64,000 nucleotides of DNA from a virus. The position numbers were made by a program, and so were the translations under genes. Where the stretch lies: positions 62,001 through 126,000 of IMG/VR virus record IMGVR_UViG_3300037475_000032; one strand, written 5' to 3'. This document shows positions 16,900 to 33,836 of the stretch, in pieces. The notes beneath the pieces were generated by a model. That model was not told the DNA's origin, ran no database searches, and saw only the letters and a program-made list of their open reading frames with translations. Within the stretch, counting starts at the first letter, position 1; each line of letters opens with the position of its first letter.

Positions 16900-16983
16900 G
16901 CGTGTCAGGTGACTATCGGTTTGTCTCAGCGGGCTGTAACCCCGTGGCCTCTGGCTTGGAAGGTTCGACTCCTTCGGCACGCA
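16900..16983 (+). tRNA. tRNA-Tyr (GTA)
   Basis: Acceptor GCGTGTC/GGCACGC, loop CTGTAAC, long variable arm as expected for bacterial tRNA-Tyr. The preceding spacer contains GCGGTA/TACCGC hairpins. Confidence 0.9.
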
Positions 16984-16987
16984 CTCT

Positions 16988-17070
16988 GCGCAAATGATGG
17001 AATGGTAGACATGCTGTCTTGAGGAGGCAGTGCCCTAACGGGCGTGAGGGTTCGACTCCCTCTTTGCGCA
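16988..17070 (+). tRNA. tRNA-Leu (GAG)
   Basis: Acceptor GCGCAAA/TTTGCGC, loop TTGAGGA, long variable arm typical of Leu. Confidence 0.92.
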
Positions 17071-17074
17071 TCAT

Positions 17075-17156
17075 GCCGAAGTGATGGAATGGTAGACGTG
17101 CCACGCTTAGAACGTGGTGCCCTTGTGGCGTGCGGGTTCGACTCCCGCCTTCGGCA
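17075..17156 (+). tRNA. tRNA-Leu (TAG)
   Basis: Acceptor GCCGAAG/CTTCGGC, loop CTTAGAA, long variable arm. Confidence 0.93.
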
Positions 17157-17158
17157 CT

Positions 17159-17231
17159 TGCAGTAAGGTGGTCTGGATGACCATTTGTGGCTCATATCCA
17201 CAAGAGGAGAGTTCGATTCTCTCTGCTGCTA
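17159..17231 (+). tRNA. tRNA-Met (CAT), or Ile2 if the C34 is modified
   Basis: Anticodon stem TTGTGG/CCACAA with loop CTCATAT. Acceptor TGCAGTA/TGCTGCT leaves the first pair T-T mismatched. One of three CAT tRNAs; initiator, elongator and Ile2 roles cannot be told apart by anticodon. Confidence 0.75.
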
Positions 17232-17234
17232 TAC

Positions 17235-17316
17235 GTCTCTGTGGTGGAACTGGCAGACACGCACGGTTCAAACCCGTGTGCCATTTGGCGTGAGGGTTCG
17301 ACTCCCTCCAGGGACA
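17235..17316 (+). tRNA. tRNA-Leu (CAA)
   Basis: Acceptor GTCTCTG/CAGGGAC, loop TTCAAAC, long variable arm. Confidence 0.92.
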
Positions 17317-17326
17317 TGTAGTACGA

Positions 17327-17399
17327 GGGGCTATAGCTCAGTTGGGAGAGCATCGCGCTGGCAGTGCGAGGGTCAGGGGTTCGAGTCCCCTTAGCTCCA
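17327..17399 (+). tRNA. tRNA-Ala (GGC)
   Basis: Acceptor GGGGCTA/TAGCTCC, anticodon loop CTGGCAG, T-loop TTCGAGT. Confidence 0.9.
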
Positions 17400-17499
17400 T
17401 CGTCGCTTCCGGGTTGCCCGTGCCAGCGGGGACCGGACAAACACACTCCCTGGCAGGAGTGGAACAATACGGCCACAAGTGCCGGGCGGATGAAGTTTA

Positions 17500-17573
17500 C
17501 AGAACGTGGCGCAGCTTGGTAGCGTGCTCCCTTGGGGTGGGAGAGGTCGCGGGTTCAAATCCCGCCGTTCTGA
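17500..17573 (+). tRNA. tRNA-Pro (GGG)
   Basis: Acceptor CAGAACG/CGTTCTG, anticodon arm CTCCC-TTGGGGT-GGGAG. Preceded by a 100-base structured spacer without a tRNA. Confidence 0.93.
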
Positions 17574-17577
17574 CTGA

Positions 17578-17648
17578 CGGGGACAAGTGTTATGGCCGCA
17601 CGGGGCGTTTGGGGCGCTCTAGTCAGAGTTCGATTCTCTGGTCCCCGA
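17578..17648 (+). tRNA. tRNA-Pro (TGG)
   Basis: Acceptor CGGGGAC/GTCCCCG, loop TTTGGGG, T-arm CAGAG-TTCGATT-CTCTG. Slightly irregular D-arm. Confidence 0.85.
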
Positions 17649-17746
17649 TAGCGTTGATGGTAAGTCGTGTCTAGGTGACAGGTGCCGGATCACCACTCAT
17701 TGAGTGCCGGAACAACATCGAGTCAACCGTCGCGGTCAACGCATAG

Positions 17747-17820
17747 CAGGATATGGCGCAGTCTGGTAGCGCGCTCCCCTCGGACGGGAGAGGTCGGAGG
17801 TTCGAATCCTCTTATCCTGA
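17747..17820 (+). tRNA. tRNA-Pro (CGG)
   Basis: Acceptor CAGGATA/TATCCTG, anticodon arm CTCCC-CTCGGAC-GGGAG. Confidence 0.93.
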
Positions 17821-17921
17821 TAGTCGGAAACCCTCGCGCAAGGGCGTATTGGAAGGGAGTCATGACCCCGAAGACATCGGAAGTAGCGGACAAAGGTACG
17901 CCTACCCGGTGCGGCTAACAT

Positions 17922-17993
17922 GCCTACATGGTGTAAGTGGTATCATCCTGACCTGGTACGTCAGTGTCCCGAGTTCGATTCTCGGTGTAGGCT
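17922..17993 (+). tRNA. tRNA-Thr (GGT)
   Basis: Acceptor GCCTACA/TGTAGGC, anticodon arm CTGAC-CTGGTAC-GTCAG. Confidence 0.92.
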
Positions 17994-17994
17994 T

Positions 17995-18186
17995 ATGGTA
18001 TGCAAGAGTGGAAAGAGAACATATCCCTCGAAGCGGCAAGCTGCTAAGCGAGCCGTGAATCTCAGCATCCAGGAAGGGAAGGGTCTTTGGCCGTACAAGT
18101 GCCCGGAATGTCCCGATTGGCACTTGACATCGAAACGGCCGTCGAAGCGCTCTTACAAGTGCCGCGATGGGACCCGCAACCGATAG
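17995..18186 (+). CDS. small zinc-ribbon protein, 63 aa
   Basis: Small basic protein starting one base after tRNA-Thr. The signature KCPECPDWHLTS near residue 34 is a short C-x2-C-x2-H knuckle seen in many actinophage small proteins of unknown function. No ribosome site is visible because the upstream sequence is the tRNA, so translation may depend on tRNA processing. Lys/Arg content fits nucleic-acid binding. Confidence 0.6.
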   Translation: MVCKSGKRTYPSKRQAAKRAVNLSIQEGKGLWPYKCPECPDWHLTSKRPSKRSYKCRDGTRNR

Positions 18187-18189
18187 CTT

Positions 18190-18261
18190 GCCTGCTAGGT
18201 GTTTACGGTGGCACACTTCACTCGTAATGAAGAGGACGGGGCTCGAATCCCCGAGTGGGCT
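18190..18261 (+). tRNA. tRNA-Thr (CGT)
   Basis: Acceptor GCCTGCT/AGTGGGC (two wobble pairs), loop CTCGTAA, T-arm CGGGG-CTCGAAT-CCCCG (T54 replaced by C). Confidence 0.85.
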
Positions 18262-18266
18262 TAGAT

Positions 18267-18335
18267 GGGGTGTAGGTCATGGTGACCAATCGGATTCCAA
18301 ACCCGAAGGCGAGCGTTCGATTCGTTCACGCCCCG
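18267..18335 (+). tRNA. tRNA-Trp (CCA)
   Basis: Acceptor GGGGTGT/ACGCCCC, loop TTCCAAA closed by an A-C mismatch. Confidence 0.85.
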
Positions 18336-18445
18336 CTCGACGTGCTGCAAGCGACGGCTTGTAGAGTTGTGGTGCTGTAGTCGAAGGCACGCGCCAGCAA
18401 CAATGCTGCCCGTGGACAGGCTTAAAACCTCTCTCGCGGGCTTTT

Positions 18446-18519
18446 GGTTCCTTAGCTCAGTTGGTTAGAGCGCCGCCCTGTCAAGGCGGAGGTCACGGGT
18501 TCGAGTCCCGCAGGGACCG
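18446..18519 (+). tRNA. tRNA-Asp (GTC)
   Basis: Acceptor GGTTCCT/AGGGACC, anticodon arm CCGCC-CTGTCAA-GGCGG. A second Asp(GTC) gene is at 26785. Confidence 0.94.
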
Positions 18520-18525
18520 CTTCAT

Positions 18526-18597
18526 GCGTTCGTATGGTTAGTGGTAGACCCTCCGACTTTTAATCGGAAAGCTGGGGTTCGATTCCCCACGAACGCA
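18526..18597 (+). tRNA. tRNA-Lys (TTT)
   Basis: Acceptor GCGTTCG/CGAACGC, anticodon arm TCCGA-CTTTTAA-TCGGA. Confidence 0.94.
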
Positions 18598-18767
18598 CTA
18601 GACGTGGTGACCGTCTAAGAAGGTGTAGGCCCTTGTTAGGGTTGAACCTCGTAAACTCACCACCGCCCGGTTCCCTACACCGGCAAAGGCACGGTAGGGC
18701 GTGTCATGACAATAGAGGGGTTCACGTTCCCGTCAGGGAGTCGTGCTTCGTCTCGGCGGTTCTACTT

Positions 18768-18842
18768 AGACCCTTAGCTTAGATGGCCTAAAGCGTCGGT
18801 TTTACACACCGAAGATCCTGGGTTCGAAACCCAGAGGGTCTA
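18768..18842 (+). tRNA. tRNA-Val (TAC)
   Basis: Acceptor AGACCCT/AGGGTCT, anticodon arm TCGGT-TTTACAC-ACCGA. The 170-base spacer before it contains a GGTGTAGG/CCTACACC stem but no T-loop. Confidence 0.93.
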
Positions 18843-18883
18843 CTTGCGTCAGGTTCTTTTCCTCCTTTCTTCCTGACGCTTTT

Positions 18884-18955
18884 GGGCGACTAGCTCATTG
18901 GGAGAGCGCCTGCGTGACATGCAGGAGGTACGGGGTTCGATCCCCCGGCCGCCCA
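18884..18955 (+). tRNA. tRNA-Val (GAC)
   Basis: Acceptor GGGCGAC/GCCGCCC (one mismatch), anticodon arm CCTGC-GTGACAT-GCAGG. Confidence 0.92.
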
Positions 18956-18966
18956 CTGTAGTACAT

Positions 18967-19389
18967 GGGCCTGACAGGCTTCGACTTCATGAGAGGCTGT
19001 TGGCGTCATGCAGCGGTATGGACACACCTTAAGGTCCAACGTCATAATCGGCAACGATACAGACACGCTAGCAATCCCGGCATCGTTCCTTGCAGGTGAG
19101 CAGATGGCTCCTGCGGAGGTTCACGTCGGAGGCGCAGCACTCGCACTGGTTTAGACCCCAGTGCCGGGTTTCTCACACTCCCTGTGAACAGAAAGTGTGA
19201 GTGGTGCATCAGTGCAAGCTCGTACCGTAGTAATGCAGGATGGTAGCCCCGCGCGTTTTCCTAGTTTCCCGATATGAACTAGGTGGTGGAAAAGATGGCG
19301 GCAAGCCCGTCGTCCCCGGTAGTGAAAGCTGCTAGACAATGACCCAAAGAAGCGCATGGAACACGAGGGTTCGATTCCCTCCAGGTCCA
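18967..19389 (+). ncRNA. ssrA: tmRNA (SsrA), one-piece
   Basis: Rescues stalled ribosomes by trans-translation. The tRNA-like ends pair GGGCCTG (18967) with CAGGTCC (to 19388), and the 3' T-arm is GAGGG-TTCGATT-CCCTC. The 5' region reads CTGACAGGCTTCGAC, as in bacterial tmRNA. The resume codon is probably GGC at 19050, in the context TAATC-GGC-AAC-GAT that matches the usual TAGTC-GCA-AAC-GAC. The open frame 19050-19154 encodes a 34-residue tag beginning GNDTDTLAIP and ending GGAALALV. The tag is longer than most bacterial ones and ends in V, as in the mycobacteriophage Bxz1-type tmRNA I recall. Confidence 0.93.
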
Positions 19390-19393
19390 CTAT

Positions 19394-19465
19394 CTCCTTA
19401 TAGTCCAATGGATAAGACGACCGCCTCCTAAGCGGTAGATTCAGGTTCGACTCCTGATGGGGAGA
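19394..19465 (+). tRNA. tRNA-Arg (CCT)
   Basis: Acceptor CTCCTTA/TGGGGAG, loop CTCCTAA, five bases after the tmRNA 3' end. Confidence 0.92.
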
Positions 19466-19565
19466 CTCTTGTAGCGCCCTAGCCATTGCGAAGGGCTCGG
19501 TTGCGGGGAACGGACAGATAATCTCGCTTCCAAGTGGTCTGTCACTTGTGGTGTCTATGAGAAAT

Positions 19566-19653
19566 GGAAAGACGGCAACGGCTGGCGACGCAGCTTCCCT
19601 GCTAAGGAAGTGGTCCTTCATTGGGCCTATGGGTTCGATCCCCATTCTTTCCG
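19566..19653 (+). tRNA. tRNA-Ser (GCT)
   Basis: Acceptor GGAAAGA/TCTTTCC, anticodon arm CTTCC-CTGCTAA-GGAAG, long variable arm. Confidence 0.93.
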
Positions 19654-19660
19654 CTCAATC

Positions 19661-19800
19661 TTGGTCGTAGGCTATTCCCTACCACAGCTAGAGTTCGAAC
19701 TGGCAAGGGGAGTAAGACGATAGCCCCGCTGCGGAGCGGATCAGCCCGGATCTCGTGCCTACACAAAACGGACAGTAAGTAGCCGGGGCCTACCAAGATG
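19661..19800 (+). ncRNA. structured spacer with long-range closing stem
   Basis: A 140-base segment between tRNA-Ser and tRNA-Asn is bracketed by ATCTTGGT and ACCAAGAT, which are perfect complements, with GTAGGC/GCCTAC just inside. No tRNA core or reading frame is seen. It could be a processing domain or an unrecognised small RNA. Confidence 0.35.
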
Positions 19801-19805
19801 TTCAT

Positions 19806-19877
19806 TCTCCTGTGGCGCAATGGCAGCGCGGCAGCCTGTTAAGCTGACGGTTGAAGGTTCGAGTCCTTCCGGGAGAG
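19806..19877 (+). tRNA. tRNA-Asn (GTT)
   Basis: Acceptor TCTCCTG/CGGGAGA, loop CTGTTAA, T-arm GAAGG-TTCGAGT-CCTTC. Confidence 0.93.
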
Positions 19878-19879
19878 CT

Positions 19880-20233
19880 ATGGTTCGTAACTGTAAGAAG
19901 CACGGAGAGGTGAGACATCGATCTCGCGGAAAGCGAGGTTGGCGTTGTACTCTCTGCGCCAACGAATCAGTCTCGAACAGTCGCAGAAAGATCAAGCGTA
20001 TCCTTGTGGAAGAACACGGAAGCGCTTGCAAGATCTGTGGCTACAATCGTTGTATCGCGGCCCTTCACTTTCATCATGTCGATCCAGAGACTAAGAGCTT
20101 TGGGGTCGCGGCAGGAGGAAGTGCAAGGTCGCTCAAGAGAGCACGCGAAGAGGCCGCCAAGTGCGTCCTTTTGTGCTCGAACTGCCACGCCGAGATAGAG
20201 GCTGGCATTACGTCCCTGTGGCCGAATGGTTAG
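19880..20233 (+). CDS. HNH endonuclease, 117 aa
   Basis: Free-standing HNH nuclease between tRNA-Asn and tRNA-Cys. Zinc/HNH residues: CTLC near 23, CKIC near 50, LHFHHVDP, then LCSNCHAEIEAG. The ATG lies 2 bases after the tRNA-Asn discriminator and the stop codon falls inside tRNA-Cys, so the last residues are encoded by tRNA sequence. Such genes are typically mobile homing endonucleases that target sequences in or near tRNA genes. Confidence 0.82.
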   Translation: MVRNCKKHGEVRHRSRGKRGWRCTLCANESVSNSRRKIKRILVEEHGSACKICGYNRCIAALHFHHVDPETKSFGVAAGGSARSLKRAREEAAKCVLLCSNCHAEIEAGITSLWPNG

Positions 20234-20282
20234 GTACGCGGCTGCAACCCGTGGTATGCAGGTTCGACTCCTGTCAGGGACT
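20212..20282 (+). tRNA. tRNA-Cys (GCA)
   Basis: Acceptor GTCCCTG/CAGGGAC, loop CTGCAAC. Its first 22 bases overlap the 3' end of the HNH gene. Confidence 0.92.
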
Positions 20283-20326
20283 TGCAGGTAGCGGCGTCTG
20301 CCTGAGATGGCTCAACGCCGCGCTTT

Positions 20327-20412
20327 GGAAGGTGACCGGCATGGACGAGGACACCGCCTTGAAAGCGGCTGGGGACTAACCGCCCTCAAGGGTTCGATTC
20401 CCTTACCTTCCG
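20327..20412 (+). tRNA. tRNA-Ser (TGA)
   Basis: Acceptor GGAAGGT/ACCTTCC, loop CTTGAAA, long variable arm. A GCGGCGT/ACGCCGC hairpin lies in the 44-base spacer before it. Confidence 0.92.
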
Positions 20413-20443
20413 CTCCTATCCCCGCAAAGCAAAGGATTGTATC

Positions 20444-20857
20444 TTGAGAGCAGTCATGTACCTCTTTGCCAACAAAGGGCTCGGCATGTCGTCGGGCAAG
20501 ATGTCGGCACAAGTGGCCCACGCAGCGGTCGAGGCATTTCACATCAGCGATCCCGAGTTGGTTGCTCAGTGGTACGTCGGCGGCCATTACTGCAAGTACG
20601 TGATGGCAGCGGAGGATGAAGTTCACCTTCACACCATCAAGTACTACCTGGAGCAGCGGGGCTTCAAGACGAAGCTCATTGTCGATGAGGGTCACACGGA
20701 GATCCGTCCTCATACGGCTACGGCTCTGGGTGTCGAGATCGTGGACAAGGATGACGCTCATGTCGCTGCCACGTTCGGAGACTTCAAGATCTACCGCGAT
20801 CCTCCAGTGCGTCCTAAACCGGATAAGCTGAGGCGTCGTAGGTGGTATCACTCATAG
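20444..20857 (+). CDS. pth2: peptidyl-tRNA hydrolase, Pth2 type
   Basis: Releases peptides from prematurely dropped peptidyl-tRNA. The Pth2 (archaeal/eukaryotic-type, unrelated to bacterial Pth) signature is visible: GKMSAQVAHAAVEA (residues 18-31), a central CKYVMAAEDEVHLHTI, then IVDEGHTEIRPHTATALGVEI near the C-terminus. The start is a TTG at 20444 with AAAGGA 7 bases upstream; it is needed to supply the first strand (RAVMYLF). At 137 residues it is a full-length family member. It sits inside the tRNA array, between tRNA-Ser genes. Confidence 0.85.
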   Translation: MRAVMYLFANKGLGMSSGKMSAQVAHAAVEAFHISDPELVAQWYVGGHYCKYVMAAEDEVHLHTIKYYLEQRGFKTKLIVDEGHTEIRPHTATALGVEIVDKDDAHVAATFGDFKIYRDPPVRPKPDKLRRRRWYHS

Positions 20858-20882
20858 CAGTCAAGTCAAGGAGAAAAGAACA

Positions 20883-21086
20883 GTGGCACTACTCGCAAGA
20901 CAGGACAACACCCCCCCCGCACTCGCCGCTGAGCTAGATGCTCACAAGCAGCGCTATCAGGCGGGCCGCGCATCGGTCATCGAGCGTGGGACTCAGAGGG
21001 TCGCCCAGATCAAGCACCTCCAGAAGGAGCTTGAGGCTGAGGCTTCCGCCCATCAAGCTGTGTTGGAGCAAGCACACCAGTCGTAA
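20883..21086 (+). CDS. small helical protein, 67 aa
   Basis: GTG start at 20883 with GGAGAAAAG upstream. Ala/Gln/Glu-rich, probably one long helix or coiled coil (QIKHLQKELEAEASAHQAVLEQ). No family recognised. It lies in a three-gene cluster with Pth2. Confidence 0.55.
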   Translation: MALLARQDNTPPALAAELDAHKQRYQAGRASVIERGTQRVAQIKHLQKELEAEASAHQAVLEQAHQS

Positions 21087-21104
21087 GACAGCAAGGGAGT
21101 CGTC

Positions 21105-21320
21105 GTGTTTACCGAAGACGAGATAAAGGCATTGGTCGCGCACGCTGTACACATGGCACGCACGACGACTCCTGGAAATGTCTGCAATGAGGCAGTCGTA
21201 CAGCAGGTCATGAAGGAAGAGTTCGTGCCCGGACAGGGATGGAAGTCCAAGTACTTCACATCCGATGAGCGCCCGGAGACGGACTTGATCGATCTTTGGC
21301 TCTCAGAGCCACGTATCTAG
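21105..21320 (+). CDS. hypothetical protein, 71 aa
   Basis: GTG start at 21105, AAGGGAG upstream. Acidic helical protein (FTEDEIKALVAHAVHMAR). Its stop codon overlaps the first base of tRNA-Ser(GGA). Function unknown. Confidence 0.6.
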   Translation: MFTEDEIKALVAHAVHMARTTTPGNVCNEAVVQQVMKEEFVPGQGWKSKYFTSDERPETDLIDLWLSEPRI

Positions 21321-21407
21321 GAAGGTACGCGAATGGTTAGCACGCTGCTTGGAAAGCAGTTGGTCGTTTAAACGCACGGCTTGTGGGTTCGAGTCCCATG
21401 CCTTCCG
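21320..21407 (+). tRNA. tRNA-Ser (GGA)
   Basis: Acceptor GGAAGGT/GCCTTCC, loop TTGGAAA, long variable arm. Confidence 0.9.
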
Positions 21408-21411
21408 CTCT

Positions 21412-21496
21412 GGATAGTACGCGAATGGAAAGCAGCCTGCCTCGAAAACAGGTGTAGGGTGAAAGTCCTTTCTGGGTTCGAGTCCCAGGCTATCCG
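21412..21496 (+). tRNA. tRNA-Ser (CGA)
   Basis: Acceptor GGATAGT/GCTATCC, loop CTCGAAA closed by a C-A mismatch, long variable arm. Confidence 0.88.
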
Positions 21497-21499
21497 TAA

Positions 21500-21571
21500 G
21501 GCGATTTAGCTCACTGGTAGAGCGGCACGCTGAAAACGTGCGCGTACCGAGTTCGATTCTCGGAATCGCCA
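21500..21571 (+). tRNA. tRNA-Phe (GAA)
   Basis: Acceptor GGCGATT/AATCGCC, anticodon arm GCACG-CTGAAAA-CGTGC. Confidence 0.94.
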
Positions 21572-21594
21572 TCCATCCTGGTCCATAATAGGTG

Positions 21595-22077
21595 ATGCAA
21601 CCAGGAGATTTCATCCTTTGTCACCGTAAGGGGATCGTCAGCAGTATCATCCGTCTTGGTGAGCGCATACGCTTCCGTTCGGGTGACAGATGGTCCCACG
21701 TCGCCATCGTGGAGAACGATGAATGGATCATCGAGGCTCTGACGAAAGGCGTAGTGCGTTCACACATCTCAGTCTATGACAAGACCGAGAAGCTGCTTGT
21801 CAGCAGCGGCCTAGATGAGCACGACCGCCCGCAGGCTGTCGCCTTCGCTCAAAGCTGTGTGGGGCAGAAATACGGATGGCTCATCATCTTCGGAATCGCT
21901 CTGCGCTTCCTCACTCCGGGTCGAGGTCTTTGGTTCGGCTCAGATGGCAGTGAGATTTGCAGTGGCCTTGTGGCCCAGGCGTTGGTGCGTGGCCCGAAGA
22001 TCTTCAAGGTCAACCCTGCTAGCATCACTCCAGCGGAGTTGGCGGAAGAATACGCTGTACCGCACAAGAGCAAGTAG
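21595..22077 (+). CDS. permuted NlpC/P60-like (YiiX/LRAT-type) cysteine hydrolase
   Basis: 160 residues. The order is that of the permuted papain-like families: PGDFILCHRKG at the N-terminus, RWSHVAIVE with the catalytic His (about 38), a central EKLL strand, and ICSGLVAQAL with the nucleophile Cys near residue 126. Members act as amidases or peptidases on cell wall or lipids. No signal peptide. The stop is immediately followed by tRNA-Lys. A role in lysis or in modifying host envelope is inference. Confidence 0.7.
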   Translation: MQPGDFILCHRKGIVSSIIRLGERIRFRSGDRWSHVAIVENDEWIIEALTKGVVRSHISVYDKTEKLLVSSGLDEHDRPQAVAFAQSCVGQKYGWLIIFGIALRFLTPGRGLWFGSDGSEICSGLVAQALVRGPKIFKVNPASITPAELAEEYAVPHKSK

Positions 22078-22150
22078 GGGTTGGTAGCTCAACTGGCAGA
22101 GCAGGGGCCTCTTAAGCCCAAGGTTGAGGGTTCGATTCCCTCCCAACCCA
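22078..22150 (+). tRNA. tRNA-Lys (CTT)
   Basis: Acceptor GGGTTGG/CCAACCC, loop CTCTTAA. Begins at the base after the preceding stop codon. Confidence 0.93.
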
Positions 22151-22155
22151 CTCAT

Positions 22156-22227
22156 AGGAACATGGTGAAATGGTAATCACGACTCTCTGATACGGAGTTA
22201 TTCTGGGTTCGATTCCCAGTGTTCCTA
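22156..22227 (+). tRNA. tRNA-Ile (GAT)
   Basis: Acceptor AGGAACA/TGTTCCT, anticodon arm ACTCT-CTGATAC-GGAGT. Confidence 0.92.
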
Positions 22228-22233
22228 CTGCAT

Positions 22234-22304
22234 GGCCCGGTCGTCCATGGGTAGGACCGTTGTTTCTCAGGCAACAAAACAGGGTTCGAGTCCCTGTCGG
22301 GCTA
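22234..22304 (+). tRNA. tRNA-Glu (CTC)
   Basis: Acceptor GGCCCGG/TCGGGCT with terminal wobble pairs, loop TTCTCAG. Confidence 0.87.
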
Positions 22305-22462
22305 CTACTAATCAACCTCCTTGGAGGTAGATACAGGTCGGAGGTTCAGGTTGTCGCGCGCAGCCATCACGATCTCTGACCGGCCCGTGGATTCCCGTAT
22401 GAGGTGAGGTAAAATCTCACTGTGCCGTAACGGGATGGTGGAGGAAGCGACGGCGATTACGA

Positions 22463-22536
22463 CGCGGAGTGGAGCAGTCTGGAAGCTCGCTTGGCCCATA
22501 ACCAAGAGGTCGGGGGTTCGAATCCCTCCTCCGCTA
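22463..22536 (+). tRNA. initiator-like tRNA-fMet (CAT)
   Basis: Begins CGCGGAGTGGAGCAGTCTGG, nearly identical to bacterial initiator tRNA, with loop CCCATAA. The first acceptor position C1 faces T72, an unpaired end as required of initiators (usually C1-A72). The anticodon stem is TTGG/CCAA, lacking the usual run of three G-C pairs. Confidence 0.85.
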
Positions 22537-22600
22537 TACGGATGAAAACATGCACATGTACCCACTTCATGTGTACGTTTTCCTCCAATGATGTGTACAT

Positions 22601-22674
22601 TGCTCGTTAGGGGAATTGGCAGACCCGCTCGGCTCTGAACCGAGAGTATCCAGGTTCGACCCCTGGACGAGCAG
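22601..22674 (+). tRNA. tRNA-Gln (CTG)
   Basis: Acceptor TGCTCGT/ACGAGCA, anticodon arm CTCGG-CTCTGAA-CCGAG. Confidence 0.92.
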
Positions 22675-22680
22675 CTTCTT

Positions 22681-22752
22681 TCCGGGATCGTACAATCGGC
22701 AGTACGGCGGACTCTGAATCCGCAAATCGAGGTTCGAGCCCTTGTCCCGGAG
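22681..22752 (+). tRNA. tRNA-Gln (CTG), second copy of the anticodon
   Basis: Acceptor TCCGGGA/TCCCGGA, anticodon arm GCGGA-CTCTGAA-TCCGC. The body differs from the gene at 22601, so it is not a recent duplicate. Confidence 0.9.
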
Positions 22753-22847
22753 CTAATACAGCGTCACCGTTGGGTGACCGGAGGTCCGTCAGATGGCGGC
22801 CGTACGGGTGAGCGCTACCGCTTTCGGGTGAGAGTCCCGACTTACAT

Positions 22848-22942
22848 GCGTCTGTAGCTGAATGGTAGAGTCGGCCTCAAAAACCGGCCACAGCACTGGG
22901 TTTTCACCCCAGCGGATGCGGGTTCAAGTCCCGTCAGGCGCA
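22848..22942 (+). tRNA. tRNA-Leu (CAA), second
   Basis: Acceptor GCGTCTG/CAGGCGC, loop CTCAAAA with a C-A closing mismatch, very long variable arm (CTGGG/CCCAG stem). Confidence 0.8.
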
Positions 22943-22947
22943 CTCAT

Positions 22948-23022
22948 TGGGGAATAGAATATGCTGGTATGTTCGCCTGACTTTGAATCAGGAGGCCGTG
23001 GGTTCGATTCCTACTTCCCCAG
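22948..23022 (+). tRNA. tRNA-Gln (TTG)
   Basis: Acceptor TGGGGAA/TTCCCCA, anticodon arm CCTGA-CTTTGAA-TCAGG. Confidence 0.93.
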
Positions 23023-23026
23023 CTTT

Positions 23027-23129
23027 GCCCTTGTGGCGGAATCGGCATACGCATCCGGCTTAAACCCGGCCACGCGAGCTTCCTCTCAACAAGGTCTCGC
23101 ACTTGAGGGTTCGACTCCCTCCAAGGGCA
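23027..23129 (+). tRNA. tRNA-Leu (TAA)
   Basis: Acceptor GCCCTTG/CAAGGGC, loop CTTAAAC. The variable arm is unusually long (GCGAG stem region), total 103 bases. Confidence 0.88.
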
Positions 23130-23207
23130 CTTCGCCCCAGATCCGCCTCTGCTCGATACTGCGACGGCAGTGAGTATGCGCCTGGGGCCACGAATGTAGT
23201 GAACCAT

Positions 23208-23280
23208 GGCGTGGTTCGTATATCGGTCAATACTCCAGGTTGTGAACCTGGCAAGATGGGTTCGATTCCCATACCTCGCC
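23208..23280 (+). tRNA. tRNA-His (GTG)
   Basis: Anticodon arm CCAGG-TTGTGAA-CCTGG. An extra G at -1 pairs with C73, as in normal tRNA-His; one T-T mismatch in the acceptor. Confidence 0.9.
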
Positions 23281-23282
23281 CT

Positions 23283-23356
23283 GTGAGCGATCCCGAAGTG
23301 GTCGAGGGTCCGGGTTGTGATTCCGGCGTAGGCGAGTTCGAGTCTCGTCGCTCACC
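23283..23356 (+). tRNA. tRNA-His (GTG), second, lacking encoded G-1
   Basis: Acceptor GTGAGCG/CGCTCAC with C73, loop TTGTGAT. The base at -1 is T, so the histidine identity G-1 is not encoded and the tRNA may be poorly charged or have another role. Confidence 0.82.
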
Positions 23357-23385
23357 CTTTTCTTCGTGCTCCTCATCCGTAATGG

Positions 23386-23724
23386 ATGATGTTCCGCAAA
23401 GGCAATACGGTCCCACTCAGAGAGTACTTCGAGGCTCTACGTGTTGCCGACCAACGAGCCCTCCAGATCAAGGAGGTAGCGGACAAGGATGCACTCAGGC
23501 TGGCTCGTGAGATCCAGACGTACAAGGACGAGAAGGCTAACGAGCTACGCAGTCAGATCGAGCGAGAACAAGGCGAACGTGCCACCAAGAAGGAACTGCA
23601 AGATCTGGCAGACCGCATCCAGGAGGAACGCCACACGGGCGGTCTCGATACACGCACATTGGTCGTTAGCATAGTCCTGATTCTTGTGGGTATAGCTGCG
23701 ATCATCGGGCCACATATTCACTAA
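23386..23724 (+). CDS. coiled-coil protein with C-terminal membrane anchor, 112 aa
   Basis: Residues 10-85 are a charged coiled coil (ALQIKEVADKDALRLAREIQTYKDEK). A single hydrophobic span follows near the C-terminus (LVVSIVLILVGIAAIIG), so the protein is probably tail-anchored with its coil in the cytoplasm. Tandem ATG codons at 23386/23389. It could be a membrane organiser, a spanin-like or a holin-related protein; I cannot choose. Confidence 0.65.
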   Translation: MMFRKGNTVPLREYFEALRVADQRALQIKEVADKDALRLAREIQTYKDEKANELRSQIEREQGERATKKELQDLADRIQEERHTGGLDTRTLVVSIVLILVGIAAIIGPHIH

Positions 23725-23728
23725 CTTT

Positions 23729-23802
23729 GCTCCTCTGGTGTAACGGTTAGCACAACTGGTCTTATAAGCAGTCAGGTCGGGGTTCAAATCCTCGGGGGAG
23801 TA
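23729..23802 (+). tRNA. tRNA-Ile (TAT)
   Basis: Acceptor GCTCCTC/GGGGAGT, loop CTTATAA with an irregular anticodon stem. Confidence 0.8.
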
Positions 23803-23814
23803 CTTGCAGCATAC

Positions 23815-23889
23815 GGGTGTGTACCAAATGTTGGCTTTGGAACTGGCTCTTAACCAGAGTACACGCAGGTTCGATTCCTGTCACGCCCA
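23815..23889 (+). tRNA. tRNA-Lys (CTT), second
   Basis: Acceptor GGGTGTG/CACGCCC, anticodon arm CTGG-CTCTTAA-CCAG. Confidence 0.88.
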
Positions 23890-23890
23890 T

Positions 23891-24033
23891 GGGTGGTCCG
23901 CGAGGACATTGCGGGTTCGAGTCCCGTCATGGACACAACGCCGTTACCTGTGTGTACAGCAGGTGCGCTCGATTCTAGATAGAGCGAGGCCAAGTGCTCG
24001 TGTATGCTAACTGGTAAAGCAGCCCTAACGCTT
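23891..24033 (+). pseudogene. decayed tRNA fragments
   Basis: At 23910-23934 a T-arm GCGGG-TTCGAGT-CCCGT with an acceptor-like CATGGAC follows only about 20 bases of D-side sequence, so the anticodon arm is missing. Further on, GCTCGATTCTAG and TATGCTAACTGGTAAAGCAG look like isolated T-arm and D-arm pieces of other tRNAs. Confidence 0.5.
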
Positions 24034-24108
24034 GTCGCCATCGTCTAGCCTGGTTCAGGACGCGGCCCTCTCACGGCCGAAACACGGGTTCAAATCCCGT
24101 TGGCGGTA
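24034..24108 (+). tRNA. tRNA-Glu (CTC), second
   Basis: Acceptor GTCGCCA/TGGCGGT, anticodon arm CGGCC-CTCTCAC-GGCCG. No Glu(TTC) tRNA was found in the array. Confidence 0.9.
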
Positions 24109-24123
24109 CTTGCTCAGATGTGG

Positions 24124-24135
24124 TATCCTACCGCC
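24124..24135 (+). promoter_or_regulatory. -10 box for a leaderless HNH transcript
   Basis: TATCCT followed by six bases and the ATG at 24136; TTGGCG lies 18 bases upstream inside tRNA-Glu. TATCCT plus six bases before ATG also occurs at 43558-43569. Confidence 0.4.
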
Positions 24136-24771
24136 ATGAGTCGCGCTAGACCATGGAGGGATCAGGAGACCGGACAAACCCACTGGTTTGACTACCGTTC
24201 TTCCTCCGCCACAGTCGAGCAACTTGAGATCTTGGCCGATGCAGAGGGTCTTGATCTTGACGACCTACTTGACGAGGGCCTGTCGCAAAGGCAGGTGTTG
24301 TTTCGGCTACATGCCGTCACTAACCTCATCCCGGAGAGAGTCCTGGAGCGCAGGCAAGAACGCCTCGAACGCTCCCAGGTCGAACCGATCTGCCGGATAT
24401 GCAGCTTGTACGGATGGGAGTGCGAGGGTAAGATCACTCGTCACCATTTCGTGCCAAGGTGGCTCATGCGAGAGCTTGATAGCTACCAGACCTACGCCGC
24501 GAAGGCGAGGTGTACCATCCCCGTGTGTGTCGGTCGCCACCGCGATCTTCACTACAGGGAAAGTGATATTGACAAGAGCATCGTTCCGTACCTAACGGCT
24601 GAGGAGAAGGAGCTAGCACGCATCCTACTCCAAGAGCTAAAGGACGAGCGTCCAACGATCTACGAGTTGATCGGCGGCGGAAGTACTGCGAGCTACGAGT
24701 ACCAGCTTGTCCGAGACTTTAGGCGAGGAGGTTTCGAGTCAGTGACACATGGAGAAATTGAAGGTCCATAG
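24136..24771 (+). CDS. HNH-like endonuclease, 211 aa
   Basis: The middle (about residues 93-150) has CRIC, a Trp/Cys strand, ITRHHFVPRWLM with the HH pair, and a late VCVGRHRDLHY, the layout of an HNH/5-methylcytosine-restriction-type zinc nuclease. The N-terminal 80 residues are helical and the C-terminus basic. Start chosen at the ATG preceded by TATCCT. It is the second HNH gene inside the tRNA array. Confidence 0.7.
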   Translation: MSRARPWRDQETGQTHWFDYRSSSATVEQLEILADAEGLDLDDLLDEGLSQRQVLFRLHAVTNLIPERVLERRQERLERSQVEPICRICSLYGWECEGKITRHHFVPRWLMRELDSYQTYAAKARCTIPVCVGRHRDLHYRESDIDKSIVPYLTAEEKELARILLQELKDERPTIYELIGGGSTASYEYQLVRDFRRGGFESVTHGEIEGP

Positions 24772-24811
24772 CCTTACGCCGTGAGTGAGGGCGAAAATAC
24801 TCACTCAGCTA

Positions 24812-24884
24812 CTCCTCGTGGTCCAGTGGATAAGACGCTGCCCTGCGAAGGCGGAGATCGGAGGTTCGAGTCCTCCCGAGGAGA
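24812..24884 (+). tRNA. tRNA-Arg (GCG)
   Basis: Acceptor CTCCTCG/CGAGGAG, anticodon arm CTGCC-CTGCGAA-GGCGG. A34 would normally become inosine in ACG; here the anticodon is GCG. Confidence 0.9.
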
Positions 24885-24886
24885 CT

Positions 24887-24958
24887 AGATGCGGTGGCCC
24901 AAGTGAGAGGCAGCCCGACAAGGGAAGAGTTGCCGGAATCCAAACCCGGCTCGCATCT
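24887..24958 (+). pseudogene. tRNA-shaped element without a T-loop
   Basis: A 72-base unit with a perfect acceptor-like AGATGCG/CGCATCT stem and internal hairpins, but the T-arm position reads CCGG-AATCCAAAC-CCGG and no normal anticodon loop is present. It is either a decayed tRNA or a tRNA-mimic RNA. Confidence 0.4.
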
Positions 24959-24973
24959 GCTATTGTAGTTCTT

Positions 24974-25047
24974 GCCCATATCGCCTAACGGACATGGCAC
25001 CAGTCTTCGAAACTGGCACAATCCGGGTTCGACTCCCGGTGTGGGCG
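24974..25047 (+). tRNA. tRNA-Arg (TCG)
   Basis: Acceptor GCCCATA/TGTGGGC, anticodon arm CCAGT-CTTCGAA-ACTGG. Confidence 0.93.
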
Positions 25048-25215
25048 CTAGGAAGGTAGCTCCTTCCCAGAGGGACGAGAGAAGTCCGCGACAACCAAGA
25101 TGGACTGTGAGGGAGTTGCGGGGTAAGGTTCGCTACCGGCTTACATCTGGGCTATTCAGTCAACGCACCAGAGGGCCAAAGGGTAGGTCCCATCTCTTCG
25201 TTCCTTGTCTTTAGG

Positions 25216-25252
25216 CTCCTGCCGCTGACCTGAAAAGGCGGGAGTAGGTCAG
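25216..25252 (+). ncRNA. pair of overlapping alternative stems in a tRNA spacer
   Basis: CTCCTGCC (25216) pairs with GGCGGGAG (25237-25244), and the interleaved CTGACCT (25225) pairs with AGGTCAG (25246-25252). The loops are too short (1 base) for both to form easily, so they look mutually exclusive. It lies in the 255-base gene-free spacer 25048-25302. Confidence 0.35.
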
Positions 25253-25302
25253 AAGGCCCACGGTGCGCTACCAGCACTGCGATGTTCGCCCGTGGGACCC
25301 TT

Positions 25303-25374
25303 GGGGTAGTCGTATAACGGCGATTACAGCAGCTTGCCATGTTGCAGACGGGGGTTCGACTCCCCTCTACCCCT
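25303..25374 (+). tRNA. tRNA-Gly (GCC)
   Basis: Acceptor GGGGTAG/CTACCCC, anticodon arm GCAGC-TTGCCAT-GTTGC. Confidence 0.93.
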
Positions 25375-25463
25375 CTTCGCCGCAGGCGATGGTGAGCGCA
25401 GTCAGGAGTGAGCACGCAGCAGCAAGTTAGTACGGTACAGTACGGTTGGGGACTCATAAACCC

Positions 25464-25475
25464 TATACTTGCGGC
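25464..25475 (+). promoter_or_regulatory. promoter-like motif TATACTTGCGGC
   Basis: Exact repeat of the 12-base motif at 12993-13004, which precedes ribonucleotide reductase. Here it lies about 24 bases before a degenerate tRNA and 98 bases before the RNase P RNA, and may start their transcription. No good -35 box. Confidence 0.4.
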
Positions 25476-25498
25476 GCACGTCCGCACGTACTAATCAC

Positions 25499-25572
25499 GC
25501 ACTTGTAGCTCAGATGGTAAGAGCACTGGCTTGAAACCCCAGGTGTCGGAGAGTCGAAACCTCCCAAGTGCA
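25499..25572 (+). pseudogene. degenerate tRNA (identity unclear)
   Basis: The acceptor GCACTTG/CAAGTGC is perfect, but the anticodon loop is enlarged (CTGG-CTTGAAACC-CCAG, TGA in the middle) and the T-arm is GGAG-AGTCGAAAC-CTCC, with the T54 position changed. Without a long variable arm it is not a normal Ser tRNA. Confidence 0.55.
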
Positions 25573-25864
25573 TGTAGTAGACGGCCGCTGTCCCTAGACT
25601 GGGGATAGAGGAAGTTCGGGACATCCTGGCCTGGGAAACTGGGTCGCTTCCGTAACCAGGAGGCATAGACAACTGACGTGTGGCGGGAGCCCTTGGCGCT
25701 TGAACCGAGCACGGTTGGTGAGGATGCAATCTCAAGCAGCGAAACCTAAGGGCTCTGCCTATGGTCATAGCGGGTTGGGAGCAGCGTGGGGATAACACCC
25801 TATACGCCACGCGCGAGCGTGAGAAAGATGGTCGTCCTAGACAGAATCCCGGCTACAGCTACAG
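25573..25864 (+). ncRNA. rnpB: RNase P RNA, bacterial type
   Basis: Catalytic RNA that removes 5' leaders from precursor tRNAs. The conserved core is recognisable. P1: TGTAGT (25573) with GCTACA (25858). P2: GACGGCC (25580) with GGTCGTC (25830). P3 hairpin TGTCCC/GGGATA. Then the CR-I block GAGGAAGTTCGGGA (25608-25621) and, near the 3' end, the CR-V block ACAGAATCCCGGCT (25841-25854). CR-I and CR-V pair as helix P4, AG-TCGGGA with TCCCGGCT, leaving the single bulged T15 of the universally conserved P4 bulge. The 3' string GACAGAATCCCGGCT differs from the E. coli one by one inserted base. Between them are a GAAA-capped hairpin (25630-25643), an enclosing TCCTGG/CCAGGA stem, and an 8-bp GAGCCCTT/AAGGGCTC helix. 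tRNA-Thr follows after 3 bases. Confidence 0.82.
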
Positions 25865-25867
25865 TAT

Positions 25868-25939
25868 GCCTGCTAAGCATAAATGGTGATGCACTGGTCT
25901 TGTAAACCAGATAACTGGGTTCGATTCCCAGAGTAGGCT
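25868..25939 (+). tRNA. tRNA-Thr (TGT)
   Basis: Acceptor GCCTGCT/AGTAGGC, anticodon arm CTGGT-CTTGTAA-ACCAG. It starts 3 bases after the RNase P RNA. Confidence 0.93.
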
Positions 25940-25968
25940 TCTCGCTCCATCCCTCGACTTAAGAGGTG

Positions 25969-26457
25969 ATGAGTGACTTTCGTGTGATCCAAGGATGCCC
26001 GTGTAACCCTACACTGGCCCCGTACATCGCCATGGTCTCTGAGGAGATCAACGGTGTCGTCAACAGTATCTATCGTGGTGCTGATGCCGAGTCGATCCTT
26101 CGAGCACACGGACACCAGAGTCAGGCCCAACTCTACAACGGTTGGATTCACAGGTTGCCGGGATACCTTCCCGCTAACCCTCCTGGCCGAAGCACTCACG
26201 AGCTTCGCTCCGATGGAGTCGCTTACGCGGGTCCGGTAGGTCGCAAGCTCGATTGGTGGCAGCAGGGCTTCGACGTGAATGACGATCAGGTCAATCACTG
26301 GAAGTCCGCAGCACGCAGCCATGGATGGGTACTCTTTCAGCCGTACAACAGCGGCTCCGAGTTCCACCACCTCAACTTCCATCAGCCTCCGCATCCGCCG
26401 AGTCTGAGAACGAGATTGAGGATCATCAAGTTGCGAGCGACGCTGCCACGTCACTAA
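25969..26457 (+). CDS. M15-type peptidase (endolysin-like)
   Basis: 162 residues. The segment STHELRSDGVAYAGPVGRKLDWW and the late SGSEFHHLNF carry the H-x6-D and E-x2-H pattern of zinc D,D-/L,D-peptidases that cleave peptidoglycan stem peptides, although the first metal segment is looser than usual. GAGGTG precedes the ATG. No signal peptide, as expected for a holin-dependent enzyme. With the GH25 enzyme downstream, the phage may use two wall-cleaving activities. Confidence 0.6.
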   Translation: MSDFRVIQGCPCNPTLAPYIAMVSEEINGVVNSIYRGADAESILRAHGHQSQAQLYNGWIHRLPGYLPANPPGRSTHELRSDGVAYAGPVGRKLDWWQQGFDVNDDQVNHWKSAARSHGWVLFQPYNSGSEFHHLNFHQPPHPPSLRTRLRIIKLRATLPRH

Positions 26458-26461
26458 TCAT

Positions 26462-26533
26462 GGGGGATTAGTGCTAATGGGAACACGCTGCCCTTGCAAG
26501 GCAGAGTTACGGGTTCGACTCCCGTATCCTCCA
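26462..26533 (+). tRNA. tRNA-Ala (TGC)
   Basis: Acceptor GGGGGAT/ATCCTCC, anticodon arm CTGCC-CTTGCAA-GGCAG. Confidence 0.94.
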
Positions 26534-26535
26534 CT

Positions 26536-26603
26536 GCGCACGTAGTCTAAGTAGGACGCCCGCCATGAGGCGGGTAGTGCAGGTCCGACCCCTGCCGTGT
26601 GCT
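26536..26603 (+). pseudogene. degenerate tRNA with short anticodon loop
   Basis: Acceptor GCGCACG/CGTGTGC is intact, but the anticodon arm GCCCGC-CATGAG-GCGGGT has only six loop bases with no T33, and the T-loop reads TCCGACC. It probably cannot decode. Confidence 0.55.
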
Positions 26604-26607
26604 CTAT

Positions 26608-26678
26608 GCGGGTATGGTCTAATGGTATGACAAGTGCCTTCCAAGCTCTTGATGCCGGTTCGATTCCGGCTATCCGCT
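26608..26678 (+). tRNA. tRNA-Gly (TCC)
   Basis: Acceptor GCGGGTA/TATCCGC, loop CTTCCAA, one T-T mismatch in the anticodon stem. Confidence 0.88.
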
Positions 26679-26784
26679 CTCTGTGAGCCCCAGACGCGCC
26701 ATCCGTGCGGGAATAGACGGCCGTCACCAATACCGGAATGTGTCTCGGGTGTAAACGACCATGAACACGGCGCTCATAGTACCC

Positions 26785-26856
26785 GGTTCCATAGTGAAAC
26801 GGCCATCACGCTAGCCTGTCACGCTGGAGGTAGGGGTTCGATTCCCCTTGGGACCG
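26785..26856 (+). tRNA. tRNA-Asp (GTC), second
   Basis: Acceptor GGTTCCA/TGGGACC, loop CTGTCAC. Acceptor resembles the Asp gene at 18446 but the body differs. Confidence 0.9.
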
Positions 26857-27003
26857 CTTAGGCTATACAGACCGGGCACATCAGCCCGGACGCTGAGCTA
26901 ACTCTCGTCGTCCTTGCCATGTGCCGCACCCCGGATTAGGGAGTACATGGGCGTCGAGTTACACGAGTAGCCGATCATCCGTGCAAGCGGTAGGTGAAAG
27001 CCA

Positions 27004-27074
27004 CGCTCTCAGGCGATGGCAGCCAAACGGAGTCATAATCCGTCTAGGTGTGGGTTCGAGTCCCACGGGAGCGA
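27004..27074 (+). tRNA. tRNA with CAT anticodon (Met or Ile2)
   Basis: Acceptor CGCTCTC/GGGAGCG, anticodon arm ACGGA-GTCATAA-TCCGT. Last gene of the array. A fully paired acceptor argues against initiator function. Confidence 0.88.
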
Positions 27075-27149
27075 CTAACAACCGGGCGCGATATCCTCGA
27101 CACAGGACTCTCATCTTAGTTTTCTTTGAGTCCTGGCGCGGAATAAGTG

Positions 27150-31721: not shown

Positions 31722-33836
31722 ATGAGCCTCAACCTCCTCGATCAGGTAGAACAGACACTAGCGCCGACCAAGGTTGGCATAGTGGAGTTTGCCGAGTCTT
31801 CGGACTACTGCAACAAGCGTCTCTACCCCCGTCAGGCAACCCTTCTCAAGATCATCTTCTTGGAGGAGTTGACAGGGGCGGAGGAGGACGTTCTGGACTA
31901 CTGGATCGCCGGAGGCCGTAACGGTACTGAGATCACCATTTCACCCAACATCCGTGAGCGTATGCAGTACCTACGCGAAAACGGGTACTCGCACTTCCGC
32001 GAGGTTGATCTTGTGGGAGGCCGTCGTAGCTCCAAGGGATTCGTCACTGGACTCGCCATGGCTAAGGTCATGTGGGACTGCTTGCAGCTACAAGACCCAG
32101 GCGAGCACTACGGTATCGACCCCGAGAAGGATATCTACTTCTCATGCGTGGCTGGCTCGGAGCAGCAGGCCAAGGAGTTCCAGTACGCCGACCTTTCGAG
32201 CACGATTGAGACGTGTAGGGCCATGGAGCCCTACCTTGTGAAGTCGTTGGAGACCGAGATTCGAGTCGCCACGAGTACCGACCTTCGCAAGATCTCTCAA
32301 GCCAAGGCCCGAGGCAACCGCATCCAGAAGGATATCGCTCGCCTCAGGGGCAAGGCACTCGCCGCTAACGCCGGAACGCTTCGTGGATCAGCCACCATGG
32401 CTATCTGCATTGACGAGATGGCGCACATGATCCCCGGTGAGTCGAAGGCTGCCGCCGATCAGGTGTACAACGCTTCCGACCCGTCGCTTGACCAGTTCGG
32501 CCTTGACGGCATCATGTTCTGCAACTCGTCACCGTACACCAAGGTCGGGATGTTCTATGAGCGCTACCAGGCATCCCTCATTCCCTTCGACCCGAGCCGT
32601 CCGATTGACGAAGAGGTTGACCCGGAGGAAGGCGAGGTAGCCGCTAATGGCAACCCTCGAACCATGACTTTCCAGTACCCCTCATGGGCTCTATTCGAGG
32701 GCTACCAGTCGAGCAAACACGGCTTCAAGCGAGCCATCACCGTCTCCCCGGACTGGGACCCTGACGCCAAGACCGAGAGTGGCGAGTACGTCTGGAGTGA
32801 GCAAGACCAGAAGGCCATCCGTCAGGCCCGCTCCAAGGAGGCCGACAACCCCGAGACTTACAAGGTCGAGCGTAGGGGCAAGTTCGCTGAGGTAACGGAC
32901 GCCTTCCTCAACCCAACGATGGTGGATCGTATGTTCATGGGTACGCCGCACGAATGGGTCTACGAGACACCAGGCGATACGATCCCCAAGCTCCACTACA
33001 ACCCGCTACCGACCAACTGGGGACAGGGCGCTCTCAACACCTACCGCTACAAGTTCCACGTCGATCCATCGAGCACAACGGCTGGCTTCGGGTTTGCTAT
33101 TGGACACACGGAGATGTTCGACCGTTGGGATGGAGGGGTTGAGGAGCATGTCGTGTTCGACATCATCAAGCGCTGGAATCCCAAAGATTTCCCCGGAGGC
33201 GTCATCCGATGGGACCCGATCCTGGATGAAATCTTCTTCTACGCAGATCTTTTTAGACCGTTTGAGATCACCTTCGATCAGCACCAGTCGGCCGAGCCTA
33301 TTCAGCTACTCCAAGAGCGTTTGCAGGCTCGCAACATAGCCACGCGCGTTTACGAAAAGTTCGCCACCAATGAACTGAACTGGAAGCGTTGGGAGGTCTT
33401 CAAGACCGCCTTGTACCAGGGATTGGTCCATGGCCCATACGACACAGAGGATGCTCATTGGTGCGCTCAGGAGTTGAAGTTCTTGCAGCAGAACAGCACG
33501 AGCGGCAAGTTCCCTCGCGTCGATAGGCAGGAGATCGGCCCCGTCCAGACCAAGGATATGGCGGACTGCGTATCCGAGATCACCCATTCACTCATCGGGA
33601 ACCTGATGGTGAACCGCATGAGGGATCGCTTGTCGCAAGGTGCTCTGCTAGGTGGATCACCGGGCGGATACCGCATCGGTGGAGGCAATGGGCCGCCTGG
33701 AGGACCCGGACCTGTAGGCATCTCCGACTACTATTCGTCGCGCTCGAAGAAGGAGGCACGAGAGTACCAGAACCCATCTCGTGGGGTCGTGGGCGGAGGG
33801 CGCAACCGAATGGGCCGCAACAGGGCCAGATGGTAG
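31722..33836 (+). CDS. terL: terminase large subunit
   Basis: DNA-packaging motor. Walker A variant GGRRSSKG at residues 99-106, Walker B TMAICIDEMA with D231/E232. The C-terminal half has the nuclease fold start (FHVDPSSTTAGFGFAIGH) and FEITFDQHQSAEPIQLLQERL. The last 60 residues are Gly/Pro/Arg-rich and probably flexible. At 704 residues it is longer than most, mainly due to this tail. Confidence 0.9.
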   Translation: MSLNLLDQVEQTLAPTKVGIVEFAESSDYCNKRLYPRQATLLKIIFLEELTGAEEDVLDYWIAGGRNGTEITISPNIRERMQYLRENGYSHFREVDLVGGRRSSKGFVTGLAMAKVMWDCLQLQDPGEHYGIDPEKDIYFSCVAGSEQQAKEFQYADLSSTIETCRAMEPYLVKSLETEIRVATSTDLRKISQAKARGNRIQKDIARLRGKALAANAGTLRGSATMAICIDEMAHMIPGESKAAADQVYNASDPSLDQFGLDGIMFCNSSPYTKVGMFYERYQASLIPFDPSRPIDEEVDPEEGEVAANGNPRTMTFQYPSWALFEGYQSSKHGFKRAITVSPDWDPDAKTESGEYVWSEQDQKAIRQARSKEADNPETYKVERRGKFAEVTDAFLNPTMVDRMFMGTPHEWVYETPGDTIPKLHYNPLPTNWGQGALNTYRYKFHVDPSSTTAGFGFAIGHTEMFDRWDGGVEEHVVFDIIKRWNPKDFPGGVIRWDPILDEIFFYADLFRPFEITFDQHQSAEPIQLLQERLQARNIATRVYEKFATNELNWKRWEVFKTALYQGLVHGPYDTEDAHWCAQELKFLQQNSTSGKFPRVDRQEIGPVQTKDMADCVSEITHSLIGNLMVNRMRDRLSQGALLGGSPGGYRIGGGNGPPGGPGPVGISDYYSSRSKKEAREYQNPSRGVVGGGRNRMGRNRARW

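Follow-up and report, generated by a model that had tools for sequence, protein, structure and literature searches.

A divergent RNase P RNA in the tRNA array of a contractile-tailed phage and its relatives

RNase P is the enzyme that trims the 5′ ends of tRNAs, and its RNA is catalytic. The locus considered here raises the question of whether a phage tRNA array can hold an RNase P RNA of its own and, if so, what that RNA would do for the phage. It lies in a 64,000-nucleotide stretch of viral DNA (the window), which corresponds to bases 62001-126000 of the 160,765-base IMG/VR virus record IMGVR_UViG_3300037475_000032. An original prediction, made from the letters of the window, had placed a bacterial-type RNase P RNA at positions 25573-25864, inside a tRNA array. 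Our analysis confirms 25573-25863 as a divergent RNase P RNA: the model RF00010 matches the segment over its full length, helices P1, P2, P3, P4, and P5 can be read from it, and the predicted coordinates were right to within a base.

Specifically, a cmscan of 25400-26000 returned RF00010 (bacterial RNase P class A) at 25569-25870 on the plus strand, covering model positions 1-367 with 38.6 bits (E 1.4e-10). The curated gathering cut-off of this model is 100 bits, and a default Rfam scan of the window overlooks the RNA because its score is lower. The anatomy of the RNA, read directly and by script against Escherichia coli rnpB, is as follows.

25573..25863, plus strand: RNase P RNA (rnpB-like), P1 to P1, 291 nt (RF00010 full-length match; covariation in 11 phage RNAs; minimum free energy z-score -2.5)
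25573..25578 / 25858..25863, plus strand: P1, UGUAGU / GCUACA (double changes in 6/6 pairs, 11 sequences)
25580..25586 / 25830..25836, plus strand: P2, GACGGCC / GGUCGUC, pseudoknotted with P4 (double changes in 5/7 pairs)
25589..25607, plus strand: P3 hairpin (fold of 25587-25607, -8.2 kcal/mol)
25608..25613, plus strand: conserved region I (CR-I) GAGGAA, J3/4 (comparison with relatives)
25612..25620 / 25848..25855, plus strand: P4, with a bulged U at 25615 (E. coli U69; double changes in 6/8 pairs)
25622..25626 / 25722..25726, plus strand: P5, CAUCC / GGAUG (100% paired; double changes in 3/5 pairs)
25627..25721, plus strand: specificity-domain region, non-canonical (motif comparison with E. 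coli, Solirubrobacter, and 47 other phage RNAs)
25726..25729, plus strand: J5/15 GCAA, in which A25728 is E. coli A248 (direct comparison with E. coli rnpB)
25730..25780, plus strand: P15, stem 25730-25733/25777-25780 (direct reading)
25773..25775, plus strand: L15 GGU motif (read against E. coli G292-G293-U294)
25784..25807, plus strand: P18-like hairpin (direct reading)
25808..25821, plus strand: extra hairpin (direct reading)
25822..25846, plus strand: CR-V region AGAAAGAUGG ... ACAGAA, with ACAGAA at 25841-25846 (RF00010 alignment)

The universal core by which Rfam clan CL00002 is recognized (P1, the P2/P4 pseudoknot, the bulged U of P4, CR-I, and CR-V) is present, as is, at 25773-25775, the L15 GGU that characterizes class A and that in bacteria contacts the tRNA 3′ RCCA. 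The 3′ string had been described as differing from that of E. coli by one inserted base. The inserted T is there, and it is followed by an additional T-to-A change (window ACAGAATCCCGGCTA; E. coli ACAGAACCCGGCTTA). P4 keeps eight pairs despite one A missing across the bulge, because the inserted U ahead of CCCGG has a possible partner in the A after GGG of the 5′ strand; the lowest P4 pair in the window RNA is A.A.

Relatives of the phage were collected with its terminase as the query.

31722..33836, plus strand: terminase large subunit (phrog_2, 5e-14)

This search yielded 23 viral relatives in IMG/VR. RF00010 detects the RNA in five of them, and four more that it missed (L009, L010, L028, and L105/L021) were found by direct scanning and reading. 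Counting the window, 11 records show tRNAs upstream of the terminase gene; in 10 of them the RNA is present, and it stands as a rule just before tRNA-Thr(UGU). A custom P1/P2/P4 descriptor recovered most members of the family, missing L010 and L029; in its relaxed form it gives up to about one false match per 20-kb piece.

Comparison of these RNAs shows compensatory changes that preserve the structure. For P1, P2, P4, and P5, the strands were compared in 11 phage RNAs, namely 10 from the terminase family and one (L049) found by sequence pattern. Standard pairs fill 97.2% of the 286 cells, against 74.2% in shuffles, a figure to be read with the bias toward pairing that comes from picking helix strands by hand and eye (P2, P4, and P5 were anchored on conserved motifs). 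Twenty of the 26 pairs are changed on both sides, with 59 doubly changed cells, and none of 500 shuffles matched the real set in pairing percentage, in double-change pairs, or in double-change cells. Sliding the structure by 1-3 columns brings pairing down to 24-40%. The RNase P fold is far beyond chance. In P4, G-C becomes A-U in L105 and L009 and U-A in L050, so that the loss of P4/CR-V pairings without compensation, which would have counted against the original prediction, is not what the relatives show. With respect to sequence, GAGGA is conserved throughout the 11 RNAs (the 10 of the terminase family and L049), and ACAGAA in 9 of them. The bulged U of P4, GAGGAA, ACAGAA, J5/15 GCAA, and L15 GGU are retained, and catalytic-domain landmarks are found in nearly all phage RNAs; such retention would be explained by selection for catalysis.

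The specificity domain is a different matter. RNAs of the terminase family hold no CR-II/CR-III strings and mostly carry GGmGGGAG...CUUGNACC or close variants; in the window this signature reads GGCGGGAG (25682-25689) ... CUUGAACC (25699-25706). Canonical CR-II/CR-III strings are present in the E. coli and Solirubrobacter RNAs and in several other phage RNAs, and some other phage RNAs are only 227-250 nt long. For the specificity domains taken from seven relatives, RNAalifold gave no usable consensus, the alignment being too poor. In L010, an insertion of about 150-200 nt in this domain (4770-4960) reads as an open reading frame (ORF) from ATG.

In terms of class, the RNA resembles class A RNase P RNA (RF00010; E. 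coli M1 RNA, rnpB) in the order and topology of P1, P2, P3, P4 with its bulged U, P5, P15, P18, CR-I, CR-V, J5/15 GCAA, and L15 GGU. It differs in scoring 38.6 bits against 100, in a specificity domain of about 95 nt with other conserved bases, and in being phage-encoded, within a tRNA array and without rnpA. It belongs to the RNase P RNA superfamily as a divergent member and, by cut-off and signatures, is not a standard class A RNA, a correction to the original prediction, whose bacterial type stands. In minimized RNase P RNAs (Pyrobaculum, organellar), the catalytic domain is likewise kept and the specificity domain reduced or changed. Those RNAs are cellular or organellar, whereas here the RNA is viral and the changed domain, at about 95 nt, is not lost. 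The minimized Pyrobaculum RNA, of archaeal type, was described by Lai et al. 2010 (cited in PMC4919922).

The RNA is not unique to this phage group. Pattern scans with GAGGAANNTCNGGNC...ACAGAA(T/C)CC, followed by RF00010, gave matches in 13 of 31 records, in 35 of 50 records, and in five further ones (another match in the 31-record set, E 0.39, was left uncounted). Including the window and the RNAs found by hand, about 58 IMG/VR records carry such an RNA, a number that is no estimate of prevalence because the records were preselected. Some of these RNAs exceed the Rfam cut-off (101-189 bits), the top scores being 189 bits in the 332-kb G076, 188 in the 168-kb G025, and 146 in the 318-kb G030, and some lie in records of 300-390 kb. 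A tRNA starts within 25 nt downstream of the RNA in 21 of 44 cases. Among the first 14 records with an RNase P RNA, 12 have a terminase match and 10 a CCA-adding enzyme; in the second set of 50, this enzyme was over its cut-off in nine, mostly long records. As a phage marker, the terminase family PF20441 proved uninformative. In G025, the CCA-adding enzyme match begins about 1 kb behind the RNA. For the L049 RNA (G027), the archaeal model RF00373 (32.9 bits) ranks ahead of the bacterial one.

One relative, G014, matches a portion of a 602,736-base Candidatus Solirubrobacter pratensis contig; this indicates a provirus and suggests that the hosts are actinobacterial. The genome of this bacterium has its own canonical RNase P RNA (246.6 bits). 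The phage RNA is about 61-65% identical to it in gapped alignment, and recent capture from the host was rejected on that ground. The group thereby includes an apparent provirus of unusual size: the 152-kb phage record L182 (NZ_AUEK01000007.1, Candidatus Solirubrobacter pratensis), which has about 32 tRNAs and a transfer-messenger RNA (tmRNA), corresponds to the interior of a bacterial contig.

The part that the RNA may play is suggested by the following features of the window.

16646..27075, plus strand: tRNA array containing the RNase P RNA (47 ARAGORN tRNA/tmRNA calls)
25499..25572, plus strand: tRNA-like sequence immediately adjoining the RNase P RNA at its 5′ end (RF00005, 52.3 bits; 79% to tRNA-Phe of Caulobacter phages)
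25868..25939, plus strand: tRNA-Thr(UGU), without encoded CCA, 4 nt past P1 of the RNase P RNA (RF00005 and ARAGORN; adjacency kept in most relatives)
46210..49701, plus strand: CCA-adding enzyme (tRNA nucleotidyltransferase), C-terminal part of a 1163-aa protein (PF01743, 2.4e-26; phrog_2244, 6e-65)

The tRNA-Phe-like sequence has a broken T stem and was seen by Rfam and missed by ARAGORN. The 1163-aa protein has a weakly YunG-like N-terminus, and a similarly large ORF occurs in several relatives. Also within the array, ARAGORN calls a tmRNA at 18967-19390 (tag ASSYRSNAGW), where RF00023 stays under its cut-off; this may be a diverged or false tmRNA (in phage locus L042, RF00023 reaches 89 bits). 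Proteins encoded by the record include terminase, portal, RIIA, ribonucleotide reductase, tail sheath, baseplate J, cement protein, ThyX, primase, and endolysin; the terminase, portal, tail sheath, and baseplate genes mark the phage as contractile-tailed.

None of the 38 tRNAs of the window phage has an encoded CCA, which, together with the phage CCA-adding enzyme, implies that the phage brings tools for both tRNA ends. With respect to a protein subunit, RnpA (PF00825) had no match in 64 records (that of the window phage and 63 others, many of them fragments), and no RNase P-like protein is among the families listed in the phage protein annotation, for which part of the ORFs was scanned. With no protein partner from the phage, the RNA would likely join with host RnpA, which fits the earlier suggestion that the partner would come from the host.

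Taken together, these observations suggest that the locus is probably a phage-owned gene for a catalytic RNase P RNA that joins host RnpA to mature phage tRNAs. The array transcript would be cut, releasing the RNase P RNA from between the tRNAs; the RNA would bind host RnpA to form a hybrid RNase P, and this enzyme would cut the 5′ leaders off many phage pre-tRNAs, whose 3′ ends the phage CCA-adding enzyme would finish. The adjoining downstream tRNA suggests that RNase P cleavage there frees the 3′ end of the RNA, so that cleavage of the following tRNA would also make the RNase P RNA's own 3′ end. The benefit may be extra or phage-preferring processing capacity following host takeover. A wider proposal is plausible, at somewhat less than even odds, namely that many large tailed phages encode an RNase P ribozyme RNA (with the specificity domain replaced in the window's terminase family) that recruits host RnpA into a phage-specific hybrid enzyme maturing phage tRNAs and, via the tRNA behind it, itself.

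Several observations weigh against a phage enzyme for tRNA maturation. The window RNA falls short of RF00010 membership at the gathering cut-off, and a simple motif search, which a diverged form could escape, found neither CR-II ACAGARA nor CR-III GGUAAGAGC/GUGAAA in it; with these bacterial signatures absent, tRNA recognition may be weak or different. L028 has ACGAAA in place of ACAGAA, and L009 has CCAGAA there plus a 2-nt insertion after GAGGA. No RNA was found in G016, the sole exception among the 11 records with tRNAs upstream of the terminase gene. RF00010 had no match in isolated actinobacterial phages whose terminase is related (terminase and portal of actinobacterial phages are related to those of the window phage at 25-45% identity). 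Finally, it is not evident why a second copy would be needed, because the Solirubrobacter host has a canonical RNase P RNA of its own.

Of the other explanations, the best survivor, itself unlikely, is a specialized RNase P that acts mainly on something other than tRNAs (phage mRNAs, tmRNA, or a host RNA), or one able to withstand a host defence that attacks host RNase P RNA. The changed specificity domain of the terminase family and the tmRNA-like gene in the same array would suit such an enzyme, but the RNA is located consistently among, and directly against, tRNA genes, and the L15 GGU that contacts tRNA CCA is kept. Slightly less probable is a decoy that binds host RnpA, withholds it from the host RNA, and slows host tRNA maturation while cleaving nothing. 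Bacterial RnpA binds near P2, P3, and P4, all of which are retained, and a decoy is also consistent with the absence of a phage RnpA from the 64 records. Nonetheless, a decoy does not need active-site nucleotides, yet most relatives preserve GAGGAA, the bulged U, ACAGAA, GCAA, and GGU, and the phage needs its own tRNAs matured. It is quite improbable that the RNA is a passenger, a host rnpB acquired alongside tRNA genes and now decaying; the altered motifs of L009 and L028 and the insertion in L010 would agree with decay, but the compensatory change seen at 20 of 26 pairs, in phages whose terminases are as little as about 53% identical, the presence of the RNA in 10 of 11 relatives, and its distance from the host copy in a lysogen (about 61-65%, gapped alignment) do not. 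Bacterial contamination or chimeric contigs can practically be dismissed: bacterial rnpB does occur in some phage-filed records (Acinetobacter MD-2021a, AGRM01000002, probably MT835553), but here terminase, portal, tRNA array, and RNase P RNA stand together in the window, and this gene order is found again in independent contigs as well as in a provirus.

How does a putative phage gene for tRNA maturation compare with known systems? The window phage shares tRNA arrays with phages that have such arrays and a tmRNA (Mycobacterium cluster C, Rhodococcus E3, Gordonia Pupper; jumbo phages such as XacN1, PMC5852040). Huge phages resemble the window phage in having their own tRNAs and CCA-adding enzymes, which serve to redirect translation (Al-Shayeb et al. 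2020, PMC7162821); RNase P goes unmentioned in the main text of that paper. In a screen of megaphages against every Rfam model, the only RNAs reported were tRNAs and a tmRNA (PMC8172020). RF00010, which can miss divergent forms, had no match in 16 named phage records, including Rhodococcus E3, Gordonia Pupper, Mycobacterium HyRo, Bacillus G, and Agrobacterium Atu_ph07 (XacN1 lies outside this set). A custom scan of four isolates gave nothing convincing, a negative that rests on reading the matches of the descriptor because its relaxed form gives false ones. DNA searches with the phage RNase P RNAs among phage-filed records returned only bacterial DNA, unverified fragments, and short chance matches. 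INPHARED AGRM01000002 and CAKLQF020000022 were rejected as bacterial DNA (database contamination), and MT835553 (288 bits) as an unverified scaffold that is probably bacterial too. The original remark that no annotated phage carries such an RNA therefore holds for the isolates tested, and has to be revised in that dozens of IMG/VR phage records do. No report of a phage-encoded RNase P RNA was found in the literature searched, whose coverage leaves out most subscription journals and preprints, and such an RNA seems to be previously unreported.

Few ribozymes are near-universal in cells, and RNase P RNA is among them. If phages carry it routinely, their takeover of translation would extend to a further step, tRNA maturation, and phages would be a large and untapped reservoir of natural variants of this RNA, among them some whose specificity domains are short or altered. 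The dependence of phage tRNA arrays on host processing, the sharing of one protein subunit between two RNAs, and the ways in which a specificity domain can be replaced now become testable.
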